The translations under genes were made by a program, and so were the position numbers. A DNA stretch of 41,750 bases from Nitrospirota bacterium (GTDB taxonomy: Bacteria > Nitrospirota > Nitrospiria > JACQCE01): NCBI GenBank assembly GCA_016201765.1, contig JACQCE010000043.1, forward strand, positions 1-41,750, given 5' to 3'. Positions 1-40,999 of this stretch are shown here, one piece after another. Positions within the stretch are counted from its first letter, which is position 1. Each line of letters begins with the position of its first letter. The notes under the pieces were generated by a model. That model made no database searches. It was not told the origin of the DNA and was given only the letters and a program-made list of their open reading frames with translations.

Positions 1-762
1 TGCCGGCCTGTAGAATTGACGTGTCTGCTCTTGCACCAGATGCTCATGCCGGCTGTCGATGACGCGGCCGCGCCGAAGCACCAGCCGATCCTTGACGAAC
101 ATCGCGACCGCATCGGCCAGCACCTCCCGCTCCAGCCGCTGCCCGATGCGGATCAGCTCCGGAATGGTCGCCCGGCTCTTGTTGATCCGCGCCGCCTGCT
201 GGCAGATGATCGGGCCGGTGTCCAGCTCAGCCGTCACGAAATGGGCCGTCACGCCGATATACTCCACCCCTTTGTTGAACGCCTGCTCGTAGGCCCTCGG
301 CCCGGGGAAGGCCGGCAGAAGCGATGGATGCATGTTGATGATCCTGCCCTCGTGGTGAAAGACAAACTCGGGCGAGAGAATCTGCATGTAGCGGGCCAGC
401 ACGATGAGATCAATGTGCTCGCGCTCCAACCGCTTCAGCACCTGCTGCTCGTGCCAGTTTTTATTCACCGACGGGATGTGGACGAAGGGCACGCGAAACC
501 GGCGGGCCAATGATTTCAGACCGGGCTGGTTGCCGATCATGACGGCCGCCTGCGCCTTGATGGCTCCCCGCCTGATCCGTTGCAGAATCTCCTCGGCGCA
601 GTGGGGCTCCCTGGTCACGAGCAGCGCCAAGCGCTTGAGCCCCTTGGGCCGCGGCGGCGTATACGTGATCTCCATCCGAATCTGCCCGGCCACGGCCTGC
701 AATCCCTTCAAAAATGTCGGGAGCGAACCCCGCAGGCCGCGCATGTCCACGACCATGTTCAT
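1..762 (-). CDS. purU: Formyltetrahydrofolate deformylase (PurU-like), runs off left edge
   Basis: Minus-strand translation MNMVVDMRGLRGSLPTFLKGLQ...LALLVTREPHCAEEIL...DLIVLARYMQILSPEFVFHHEGRIINMHPSLLPAFPGPRAYEQAFNKGVEYIGVTAHFVTAELDTGPII matches the PurU formyltransferase domain. ATG overlaps the hemG stop (TGATG). Confidence 0.85.
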   Translation of the reverse strand, partial: MNMVVDMRGLRGSLPTFLKGLQAVAGQIRMEITYTPPRPKGLKRLALLVTREPHCAEEILQRIRRGAIKAQAAVMIGNQPGLKSLARRFRVPFVHIPSVNKNWHEQQVLKRLEREHIDLIVLARYMQILSPEFVFHHEGRIINMHPSLLPAFPGPRAYEQAFNKGVEYIGVTAHFVTAELDTGPIICQQAARINKSRATIPELIRIGQRLEREVLADAVAMFVKDRLVLRRGRVIDSRHEHLVQEQTRQFYRPA

Positions 763-2234
763 CACCAGATAGACCTCTTCGCCAGCGTGGCAACCAGCCG
801 GTCGGCGAGCTGTTGCGCCTGCAGGATGCAATCCGGGACGGAGACACCGCGCAAATAGTTGCCCGCGGGGACGAGCGTGGGCCATTTTTCCAGCCCGGCT
901 TCGATCGCGGCTACACGATCGGCATGGCCGATCGTGTATTGCGGAATGGCCCGCGGCCATCGGACGATTTGAACCGCCTGCGGCGTGCCGGTCACGCCCA
1001 GCCAGCGGCGCAGTTCACCCATCGTCAGCGCGATCAGCTCGTCGTCGCTTGCGTCGACCACCTCCGGGCGTTTGGCGCCGCCCAGATAATTGGTCAGCGT
1101 CACCATCCCCTCCGGCGCCCGGCCGGGAAAAATCGTCGAGCTCCAGAGCGAGCCGAGTAAACGGCAGCCTTCCTTCCCCGGCAGCAGACAGCCAAAGCCA
1201 TCGAGCGGATGGCCGACATCGGCCCGCCGGAGCCCCAACCCGACAATGACGATCGGCGCGTAGGCGATGTCGCGCAAGGCCCGGGCAGCCGTCGGCGCCA
1301 GCGGCTCGATCAGATCGGCGGTGACCGGCGCCGGCGAGGCGAGCACCACGGCTTGCGCGTCATAGGTGCGCGTCCCGCCCGCTTCCCCCTGCTCCGATAC
1401 CTCCACCGTCCATCCATTCACGGCCGGTGTGATCCGGCTGACCCGGCTGTTCACTCGCAGCGCATCGCCGAGCGTCCGGCCGATCGCCGCCGGCAATTCA
1501 CCGACGCCGTCCTGAAACGAGAAGAACCGGCGTTTGAGCGGACTCTTGGCCGGTGAGGCGGCCGCGCGGGCCCGGCGGCCGAAGAGAACGCCTTTCACCA
1601 CGCTGCCGCTCTTCCGCTCCCATTCGACCAAACGGCTGAAGGTGCTCTGCATCGACAATCGTTCCGGATCGCCGGCGTAGACGCCGGAGACAAACGGATC
1701 GAAACCGTAATCAAGCACTTCACGGCCAAAGCGCCGGGTAATGAATTGGGCGACACTTTCCTCCCCATTGCCTCGGTACGGCGGGATAAACGGTTCGGCC
1801 AGCAACCGGAATTTGGCCGCGCCGCTCCAGATCGGCGTGCGGAGAAACGCGCCCAGTCCCTGCGGCAGGGGCAGCAGCCGGCCGTCGCGCATGACGTACC
1901 GCCGCCGGGAGGAGGCATTCGCCTCCACCAGCCGGTCGGCCAGACCGACGGCCTCGCAGAACCGGATGACGTCCGGATGATTGGTCATCAGGCTGGTGGG
2001 ACCGTGCTCGAACAGGAAGAACCGGATGACGTCCGGATGATTGGTCATCAGGCTGGTGGGACCGTGCTCGAACAGGAAGCCGCCGATCCGTTCACTGCGC
2101 ATGACGCCGCCGACCCGGCTCCCCTCTTCAAGCAGGACGATCGAACAGCCCCGTTCGCGGAGCCAATAGGCGGCCGCCAGCCCGGAAATCCCGCCCCCAA
2201 CAACGGCAACGTCGATTCGTCCGGGAACCGTCAT
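762..2234 (-). CDS. hemG: Protoporphyrinogen oxidase (HemG/HemY FAD-dependent family), with internal 20-aa duplication
   Basis: VAVVGGGISGLAAAYWLRERG Rossmann motif; C-terminal GNYLRGVSVPDCI; located in a haem gene cluster. Confidence 0.9.
   Translation of the reverse strand: MTVPGRIDVAVVGGGISGLAAAYWLRERGCSIVLLEEGSRVGGVMRSERIGGFLFEHGPTSLMTNHPDVIRFFLFEHGPTSLMTNHPDVIRFCEAVGLADRLVEANASSRRRYVMRDGRLLPLPQGLGAFLRTPIWSGAAKFRLLAEPFIPPYRGNGEESVAQFITRRFGREVLDYGFDPFVSGVYAGDPERLSMQSTFSRLVEWERKSGSVVKGVLFGRRARAAASPAKSPLKRRFFSFQDGVGELPAAIGRTLGDALRVNSRVSRITPAVNGWTVEVSEQGEAGGTRTYDAQAVVLASPAPVTADLIEPLAPTAARALRDIAYAPIVIVGLGLRRADVGHPLDGFGCLLPGKEGCRLLGSLWSSTIFPGRAPEGMVTLTNYLGGAKRPEVVDASDDELIALTMGELRRWLGVTGTPQAVQIVRWPRAIPQYTIGHADRVAAIEAGLEKWPTLVPAGNYLRGVSVPDCILQAQQLADRLVATLAKRSIW
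1958..2077. repeat. Exact tandem duplication, 2 x 60 bp, inside hemG
   Basis: 1958-2017 and 2018-2077 are identical; the protein shows RFFLFEHGPTSLMTNHPDVI twice. Confidence 0.98.
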
Positions 2235-11048: not shown

Positions 11049-11151
11049 TGCGAATGGCACATTATACACCACACTCCACGCACGAGGCGAATCGAAGGGT
11101 AGATTTAAAACCAAGGGCAACGGGTGGCCGATGAACAATCAACGGTGGCTC

Positions 11152-11213
11152 GGGGCATGGGGGCATCGGAGGACGGGTTTTCGATTCCGCACGGGCCCCC
11201 ACATCCAATGCCC
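11152..11213. repeat. Hairpin repeat with conserved loop, copy A
   Basis: TGGGGGC (11158-11164)/GCCCCCA (11195-11201), loop ATCGGAGGACGG...TTCCGCACGG, outer GGGCAT/ATGCCC. Matches copy B at 24469-24516. Confidence 0.75.
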
Positions 11214-24443: not shown

Positions 24444-24468
24444 GATGCTCCTCCCCGCGTCATCATCT

Positions 24469-24537
24469 GTGGGGGCCCCGTGCGGAAGCGGTGAACCGTC
24501 CTCCGATGGCCCCCACGCCCCTGGCATCGCCATACGC
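24469..24537 (-). repeat. Hairpin repeat, copy B, with GCGTATGGCGATG leader
   Basis: Stem GTGGGGGCC/GGCCCCCAC (24469-24477, 24508-24516), loop shared with copy A; 13-mer at 24525-24537 shared with 27516-27528 and 37771-37783. Confidence 0.75.
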
Positions 24538-27453: not shown

Positions 27454-27479
27454 CAGGCCGCACCCGCCTGGTCATTAAA

Positions 27480-27528
27480 GTCAGGGGGAGATGCTCCTCT
27501 CCCCCTGACCACCCCCATCGCCATACGC
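27480..27528 (-). repeat. 49-bp hairpin element, copy C (nuoI-nuoJ spacer)
   Basis: Minus-strand GCGTATGGCGATGGGGGTGGTCAGGGGGAGAGGAGCATCTCCCCCTGAC; 43/49 identical to 37771-37819; perfect 11-bp stem. Confidence 0.9.
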
Positions 27529-36844: not shown

Positions 36845-38101
36845 TCAGGCGAAGGTTTGCGGCATCACAAACGGGCGGAATTTGAACCCGCTCAAGGGGG
36901 AGCGCGGCACCCCCTTGTACTGGACCAGCACTTTGAAGATCCGGCCCATCCCGTCCGGCGCCAGGAGCAGCTTCATGGCCGCCAGTTCCACCTCCCGCCG
37001 GACGCCGTCGCACGCGGCCAGACGCGCTTCCATCGCCTCCGCCGCCCCCAACCCGAGCAAAAACGACGTCTGATCGGTAAAACCGGCCACTTCCAATCCG
37101 ACTGCCCGTCCCACCCGCACCAACGCGCTGAAGTCGACGTGTGCGGTCAGATCCTGCCGGCCGACCCGTTGATACGGATCATCCAACCGGCGATGACCGG
37201 CATAACAGGCCAGCGTCCCCTCCCGCCGGGCCGGCGCATAGCGTTCCTCGGCGGCGTGGCCGTAATCGATTGTCAGGACAAACCCGGTGTTCAACAGCCG
37301 CCCGACCTGCGCCATCCAGTCAAGCGCCTCCAGATTCACCTCCGTCTGGAACCCTTCGGGGAGGCGAATGCCAAGCCGTTTGAAGTACTCCTCCAATGCC
37401 GGGGTGGACGGCAGATCGAGCTGCTCGATCAACCGCTCCCCGTTCAGCGTCACGAAGCGCTCCAGCAACCGGCCACCCTGCATGATCACACGGTGGACGG
37501 GAAAGGCATCGATCAGTTCGTTGGAGACGATAATGCCGGTCAGGTCGCCGGCGGCCGCCGCCTCCTCCAGGCTCCGGCACCACCGCACGGGGATGCCCTG
37601 GTCGGCAAAGCGGCCCAGCCGCCTCCGCTGTTCTGTTTCAAGCTGGGGGCTGATCTCCACCACGACGTAGCGCAATCGCTCCGGCCCTCCGACCGGAAGG
37701 ACCGAGAGGATATCCTCCGCCAGCAACCCCCGACCGGCGCCCATCTCGATGATGGTGATGGGTTCCGTGTGCGTATGGCGATGTGGGTTGTCAGGGGGAG
37801 GTGAGCAACTCCTCCTGACGTCAATAGATGGCGCCCGGTGGAGCTGTTCGACCATCTCCGCCACCTGCCGGCCGACCATCTGGCCGAAGAGCGGATGCAA
37901 GTCCGGCGCTGTGAAGTAGTCGCCCGCCCGTCCCGATCGGACGACCTCGGTCGACGCGGTCATGTAATAGCCAAGTCCCGGCTCGTAAAGCGCCATGCGC
38001 ATAAATTCCGCAAAGGTGATCCGCCCCTTCGATCGGATGGCGGCGCTGATCCGGTCGAGCAACGGAGGATGGCCGGCGGCGTCCTGTGTCCCGTCCGTCA
38101 T
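36845..38101 (-). CDS. MidA/NDUFAF7-like (DUF185) class I SAM-dependent methyltransferase
   Basis: ITFAEFMRMALYEPGLGYYM; DYFTAPDLHPLFGQMVGRQ; TIIEMGAGRGLLAEDIL; SNELIDAFPVHRV. Confidence 0.92.
   Translation of the reverse strand: MTDGTQDAAGHPPLLDRISAAIRSKGRITFAEFMRMALYEPGLGYYMTASTEVVRSGRAGDYFTAPDLHPLFGQMVGRQVAEMVEQLHRAPSIDVRRSCSPPPDNPHRHTHTEPITIIEMGAGRGLLAEDILSVLPVGGPERLRYVVVEISPQLETEQRRRLGRFADQGIPVRWCRSLEEAAAAGDLTGIIVSNELIDAFPVHRVIMQGGRLLERFVTLNGERLIEQLDLPSTPALEEYFKRLGIRLPEGFQTEVNLEALDWMAQVGRLLNTGFVLTIDYGHAAEERYAPARREGTLACYAGHRRLDDPYQRVGRQDLTAHVDFSALVRVGRAVGLEVAGFTDQTSFLLGLGAAEAMEARLAACDGVRREVELAAMKLLLAPDGMGRIFKVLVQYKGVPRSPLSGFKFRPFVMPQTFA
37771..37819 (+). repeat. 49-bp hairpin element, copy D, inside the midA-like CDS
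   Basis: GCGTATGGCGATGTGGGTTGTCAGGGGGAGGTGAGCAACTCCTCCTGAC; the ORF stays open through it. Confidence 0.9.
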
Positions 38102-38159: not shown

Positions 38160-38285
38160 GGGTCAGTTTGATGGATCCACCGTGGCAAAAATGGGGACAC
38201 GTCCCCATTTCCTCGTGCGACGCACGGCACGCAACGAAATTGGGACGTGTCCCCATTTTTGAGCCGGTCGCGGTGAAACTGACCC
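38160..38285. repeat. Nested palindromic element, GGGGACACGTCCCC cores
   Basis: Outer GGGTCAGTTT/AAACTGACCC; inner CAAAAATGGGGACACGTCCCCATTTC (38186-38211) vs GAAATTGGGACGTGTCCCCATTTTTG (38236-38261); loop contains CGTGCgacGCACG. Confidence 0.9.
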
Positions 38286-39950: not shown

Positions 39951-39989
39951 CAGGGAGGGGGGTGCTTCTCATTTTTAATGGGGACAGAT

Positions 39990-40187
39990 TTATTTTCTAT
40001 AAGGGAGGGCCCTGACGACTCCAGAATGACCGTCAAACACCCGGTTTAAGCCCAATTTACCGATGACTTTTCCTTCATCATCAAAATCGACATTCACTCC
40101 TTCAGTAATCTCCTGAGTTCTTGCCACGTGCTTTTCCTGCACTCTGATGTAGAGCGCATCCACTTCCTGATCGTATTCGATTTTCAT
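39990..40187 (-). CDS. DUF2283 small protein
   Basis: MKIEYDQEVDALYIRVQEKHVARTQEITEGVNVDFDDEGKVIGKLGLNRV. Confidence 0.85.
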   Translation of the reverse strand: MKIEYDQEVDALYIRVQEKHVARTQEITEGVNVDFDDEGKVIGKLGLNRVFDGHSGVVRALPYRK

Positions 40188-40852: not shown

Positions 40853-40999
40853 CTATCCGCTTTTCTTGAAGAAAATAAATCTGTCCCCATTAATATCGTG
40901 GAGGCAATGATAATGGATATCGAGGAGAAAATCAAACCGCTTTCCCCACCAACGAAGAGGCTTGCCTCCCAGCTACAGACTCGCGTATTGTAATCGACC

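Follow-up and report, generated by a model that had tools for sequence, protein, structure and literature searches.

The window, by which we mean the whole analysed stretch of 41,750 nucleotides, contains a gene for a MidA/NDUFAF7-type methyltransferase (midA) with a short hairpin repeat inside its coding sequence (Table 1). The assignment of the host gene is based on the PF02636 domain, which extends over the catalytic region, and on the conserved motif I; the protein matches the structures PDB 4f3n, 1zkd and 5ztz. The repeat, designated type A, occupies positions 37771-37825 of the forward strand (GCGTATGGCGATGTGGGTTGTCAGGGGGAGGTGAGCAACTCCTCCTGACGTCAAT) and has 55 bp composed of a head, an 11-bp hairpin and a TTCAAT-like tail.

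Another type A copy is located between genes encoding an Fe-S protein (nuoI-like) and a PF00499 protein (nuoJ), and these identities agree with the nuoI-nuoJ spacer named in the original prediction. The identity of the two copies, claimed to be 43/49, was recomputed with the same result and amounts to 47/55 when extended over 37771-37825; hence the predicted repeat is real, but its unit is about 55 bp rather than 49 bp. The best non-self match of the midA copy in its own genome has E=4e-15 (BLAST), and a covariance model assigns it 74.6 bits (E=1.8e-17), the midA copy and its best sisters being in the training set. The resemblance of the midA copy to other copies is beyond chance. The search of the window against Rfam yielded no match.

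Table 1. Features of the window and copies of the hairpin elements inside genes of the same genome.
Feature	Position	Strand	Type	Description
midA, MidA/NDUFAF7-type methyltransferase	36845..38101	-	A	host gene; PF02636, E=7.7e-63; 418 aa; copy within gene, in frame
element-derived MidA segment, residues 92-112	37766..37828	-		SIDVRRSCSPPPDNPHRHTHT; element plus edges, translation
type A hairpin element	37771..37825	+	A	head GCGTATGGCGATGTGGGTT, hairpin GTCAGGGGGAG/CTCCTCCTGAC, tail GTCAAT
second type A copy	27474..27528	-	A	nuoI-like / nuoJ spacer; 49-bp match part is 27480-27528
type B sister element	11147..11209	+	B	intergenic
type B sister with A-type head	24462..24526	-	B	nuoL-like / nuoM-like spacer
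spermidine-synthase-like membrane protein			A	within gene, in frame
copper-type P-ATPase			A	in frame, between YHS and HMBD domains
MazG			BA	in frame; 36 residues where 3cra has one
YchF			B	in frame; gap at element versus solved protein
AsnB			B	in frame; 35 residues where 7ylz has two
uracil-DNA glycosylase-family protein (UDG)			B	in frame, in linker
LuxE-like protein			B	in frame; gap at element versus solved protein
AMP-binding ligase-like protein			B	in frame; gene truncated by contig end
heptosyltransferase-GmhB-like fusion ORF	G000:C25:15411-15473		B	in frame, exactly at domain junction

Insertion of the element into midA

The segment SIDVRRSCSPPPDNPHRHTHT immediately precedes motif I. 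It is absent from all 11 MidA homologues compared (42-49% identity, from other families of the class), in which both neighbouring blocks align, and nearly every row of the alignment shows a net difference of 22 residues. The ORF is open across 418 aa with conserved residues throughout its length, and the 240 nt on either side of the element score as coding, with strand and phase unchanged (24.2 and 20.5 log units). The original prediction of an in-frame insertion in an open MidA ORF is thereby borne out: the alignment of homologues places the absence of about 22 residues at exactly this point, and none of these homologues has the same residues. We consider an in-frame insertion into midA, with a putative gain of about 22 amino acids, to be supported by these comparisons.

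Since the 55-nt core is shorter than the net insertion of 66 nt, the junctions account for 8-11 nt outside the element core. No target duplication was recognised at the midA site in a comparison made at the protein level, the nearest MidA genes being about 50% identical. In 4f3n, about six residues stand at the insertion site (spanned by residues 134-141), after the N-terminal part and before the strand of motif I; for the surface loop that had been predicted there, the sequence alignment to 4f3n argues in favour of the placement.

Two families of hairpins and their copies inside genes

The genome, available as one fragmented assembly of 1.96 Mb (121 contigs, 86% completeness), has about 24 good type A copies, found by BLAST and by the covariance model R1, which was built from 16 copies. 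The consensus of type A is GCGTATGGCGATGGGGGTTGTCAGGGGGAG-loop-CTCCCCCTGACTTnAAT, and three pairs of the hairpin vary at both positions. In some A copies a second hairpin, type B, lies between the head and the A hairpin. Type B (model R2, consensus GTGGGGGCATCGGAGGAC-loop-CCGCACGGGCCCCCACATnnAAT) is a larger sister family, more numerous than A. Together, A and B form 93 modules at 83 sites, BA and BB composites included, with the weakest modules at about 25 bits, so that some may be chance matches. The majority of the 83 sites are intergenic or at gene ends.

Other palindromes occupy the loops of some copies. The palindrome GCTTCGCGAGC/GCTCGCGAAGC lies in the loop of, or beside, A and B hairpins (G000:C18:183 and G000:C121:4884), and several B loops contain the palindromes CCCAAAAGC/GCTTTTGGG or CCTGCC/GGCAGG; it looks as if hairpins were inserted into the loops of other hairpins. 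A conserved stretch, AGGGGCCGAGCGTCGATTTGACACGCGAGCCGTG, precedes A copies at six sites (G000:C114:5922, C69:16005, C77:4119, C42:17473, C121:19548 and C91:13288), pointing to a longer composite unit. Further repeats of the window include a perfect 60 bp tandem duplication (a multiple of three) at 1958-2077 within ORF 762-2234 (-), and additional inverted repeats, with cores of the form TGGGGACA(C/G), at 38179-38268 and at 39975-40003 / 40865-40893, one pair being 861 nt apart.

To find copies within genes, the codon-usage phase was tested over the 240 nt to either side of each site, and the flagged sites were then translated. The ten copies within genes are all in frame and free of stops (Table 1), and a frameshifting intragenic copy was not found at any of the 83 sites. 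The identities of the host proteins are backed by Pfam; in four of the ten cases (AsnB, UDG, the AMP-binding protein and the ATPase) it was translation, and not the automatic phase flag, that revealed the position within the gene. One in-phase flag of this genome was discarded as a gene junction. Each of the seven same-strand sites that are out of phase is located between two genes or lengthens the C-terminus of a protein. In one member of the MoaD/ThiS family (PF02597), a B element (G000:C87:7717-7779) comes directly after the Gly-Gly with which these proteins normally end and prolongs the C-terminus by about 37 residues. The B element at the junction of the heptosyltransferase and HAD/GmhB-like domains may have fused two genes. 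The ratio of ten in ten is what would be expected from selection against frameshifts, and the count itself does not demonstrate a benefit.

Distribution in relatives and origin of the copies

In a scan of the class, type A was found in its own genome and in none of the remaining 272. Type B is present in 26 of the 273 genomes of the class, its own genome counted, and a strict B pattern searched in one genome per GTDB species was found in groundwater Nitrospirae MAGs, in Ca. Manganitrophus sp. GAC4 and in two Myxococcales MAGs. At those loci B is again in frame in genes that, by reading of the sequence and not by Pfam, encode a CusA-like transporter, MtnB-like and HlyD-like proteins and an M24-type peptidase; an aminotransferase of a Myxococcales MAG, named in the same way, has two B copies in tandem, in frame. 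Three in-phase flags in relatives have a stop ahead of the element and were discarded as gene junctions. Two genera of the same family share the position of the M24-type peptidase insertion, the two copies differing in length by whole codons only; it provides the best evidence, at the sequence level, that such segments may stay coding for long periods. Within genes, B keeps to a single frame for each orientation in 11 of 12 insertions; for type A several frames are seen. Given the numbers, the frame preference of B is a lead only.

Dispersed and diverged copies, compensating hairpin changes, homologues without the segment and the preserved phase make it very probable that the midA segment stems from a non-autonomous, REP/RPE-like mobile hairpin, one copy of which was inserted into midA. 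A trans-acting enzyme would recognise the hairpin and spread its copies, and those in genes would survive if the frame is kept, no stop is introduced and the loop or linker that is hit tolerates them. The added peptide would then be a passive decoration, able to persist for long, as the insertion common to two genera in the M24-type peptidase may illustrate.

Alternatively, the peptides could have been recruited for a function of the host proteins, with in-frame copies kept as useful, and the insertion that stays in frame across two genera and the constant frame of internal B copies per orientation (11/12) could be read in this way; however, the host proteins are unrelated, type A occurs in several frames, relatives of MidA and YchF lack such a segment, and neutral in-frame survival accounts for the pattern, which makes recruitment unlikely. 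It is very unlikely that the hairpins are primarily functional RNAs (terminators, mRNA-stability or regulatory elements) with a mainly intergenic role and coding copies as by-products: the hairpins are strong and most of the 83 sites are intergenic or at gene ends, but there is no T-run after the hairpin and no Rfam match, the copies occur in both orientations and as nested and fused forms, and type A was found in one genome of the class only; moreover, such a role would not change the route by which a copy reached midA. A misjoin or a dead midA gene, conceivable in an assembly of 121 contigs with 86% completeness, is scarcely credible given the open ORF of 418 aa with residues conserved along its length, the coding signal on both sides of the element and ten independent in-frame cases, which are not expected from misassembly.

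For the insertion of a mobile hairpin, a RAYT was considered as the resident partner and rejected, as the flanks of Y1_Tnp genes carry other repeats and the presence of Y1_Tnp does not match that of B. The genome has four Y1_Tnp loci, flanked by repeats of the GGGGACAG type, and three of the four genes resemble the NCBIfam RAYT model with scores below its cut-off. The inverted repeats of the window with TGGGGACA(C/G) cores resemble these GGGGACAG repeats flanking RAYT-like genes. The 624 kb around B copies contained, as a candidate for a neighbouring RAYT, one weak 44-residue match only, and several B-carrying genomes gave no Y1_Tnp match. In one relative (G004), near-identical B copies at more than five loci lie within a longer composite of several hairpins, at which several contigs end; an autonomous longer element around these copies was also rejected, the composite consisting of further hairpins with no gene. 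It is possible that the mobiliser has been lost or is distant.

Tentatively, A and B might represent a modular hairpin superfamily new to the literature, present in both Nitrospirota and Myxococcota and mobilised by some non-RAYT enzyme, that repeatedly adds in-frame loops with a preferred peptide frame to conserved proteins; in free-living bacteria, too, proteins could then be changed recurrently by way of coding palindromes.

Comparison with known palindromic elements

Rickettsia provides the best-known cases of palindromes inserted in frame, and there they could be attributed to obligate intracellular life. The ten in-frame cases described here come from a Nitrospirota lineage with groundwater relatives, and their hosts include proteins of YchF-level conservation. 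The spread of B over two phyla and an insertion kept in two genera provide a comparative set for the gain of loops in proteins, which also bears on the question of which enzyme moves untagged hairpins. A 2024 review regarded a similar process outside Rickettsia as merely conceivable (PMC10969869); intragenic REPs have been recorded from a number of free-living species (PMC3733652).

Rickettsia palindromic elements (RPE; Ogata et al. 2000) are found, many of them in frame, in unrelated protein genes (reviewed in PMC10969869). The likeness to RPE proposed in the original prediction holds for the behaviour: both are short dispersed palindromes which occur in frame in many unrelated genes and add tens of residues, and with ten such genes here and more in relatives, A and B can be classed, by this behaviour, with protein-coding palindromic elements. 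The sequences appear to be unlike, as had also been predicted, with no GTAG/CGTC tag in A and B and no match of the strict B pattern in any of the Rickettsia genomes scanned (one per GTDB species). Furthermore, RPE have about 150 bp, whereas the A/B core has 55-67 bp, is modular (A, B, BA) and mostly intergenic, and the hosts are Nitrospirota and, for B, also Myxococcales MAGs.

GTAG/CGTC REPs, some of which are intragenic (in Opitutus terrae, R. conorii and others) and code for 20-30 residues (Di Nocera et al. 2013, PMC3733652), are likewise short high-copy hairpins, mostly intergenic and in some cases within ORFs. The A/B elements differ from them by a conserved head, at least about 19 nt long, before the hairpin and by having no RAYT beside the copies, and neither a GTAG nor a CGTC tag is conserved at the hairpin foot in alignments A1 and A2 or in the listed copies. 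MITEs such as ERIC/RU (PMC2759123, PMC10969869) are also small, non-autonomous and dispersed and can be fused in frame to host genes; no terminal inverted repeats were recognised in alignment A1, and no target duplication in comparisons made at the protein level.

The literature searched contained no description of such elements in Nitrospirota or Manganitrophus. A 2025 survey of REPs (PMC12306157) tabulates three other Nitrospirota genomes by predicted repeat number; a search of its main text by terms yielded nothing on RAYTs, on Myxococcota or on copies that are intragenic or in frame. In summary, the kind of element is already known, and the A and B sequence families and their spread over two phyla are likely to be new.
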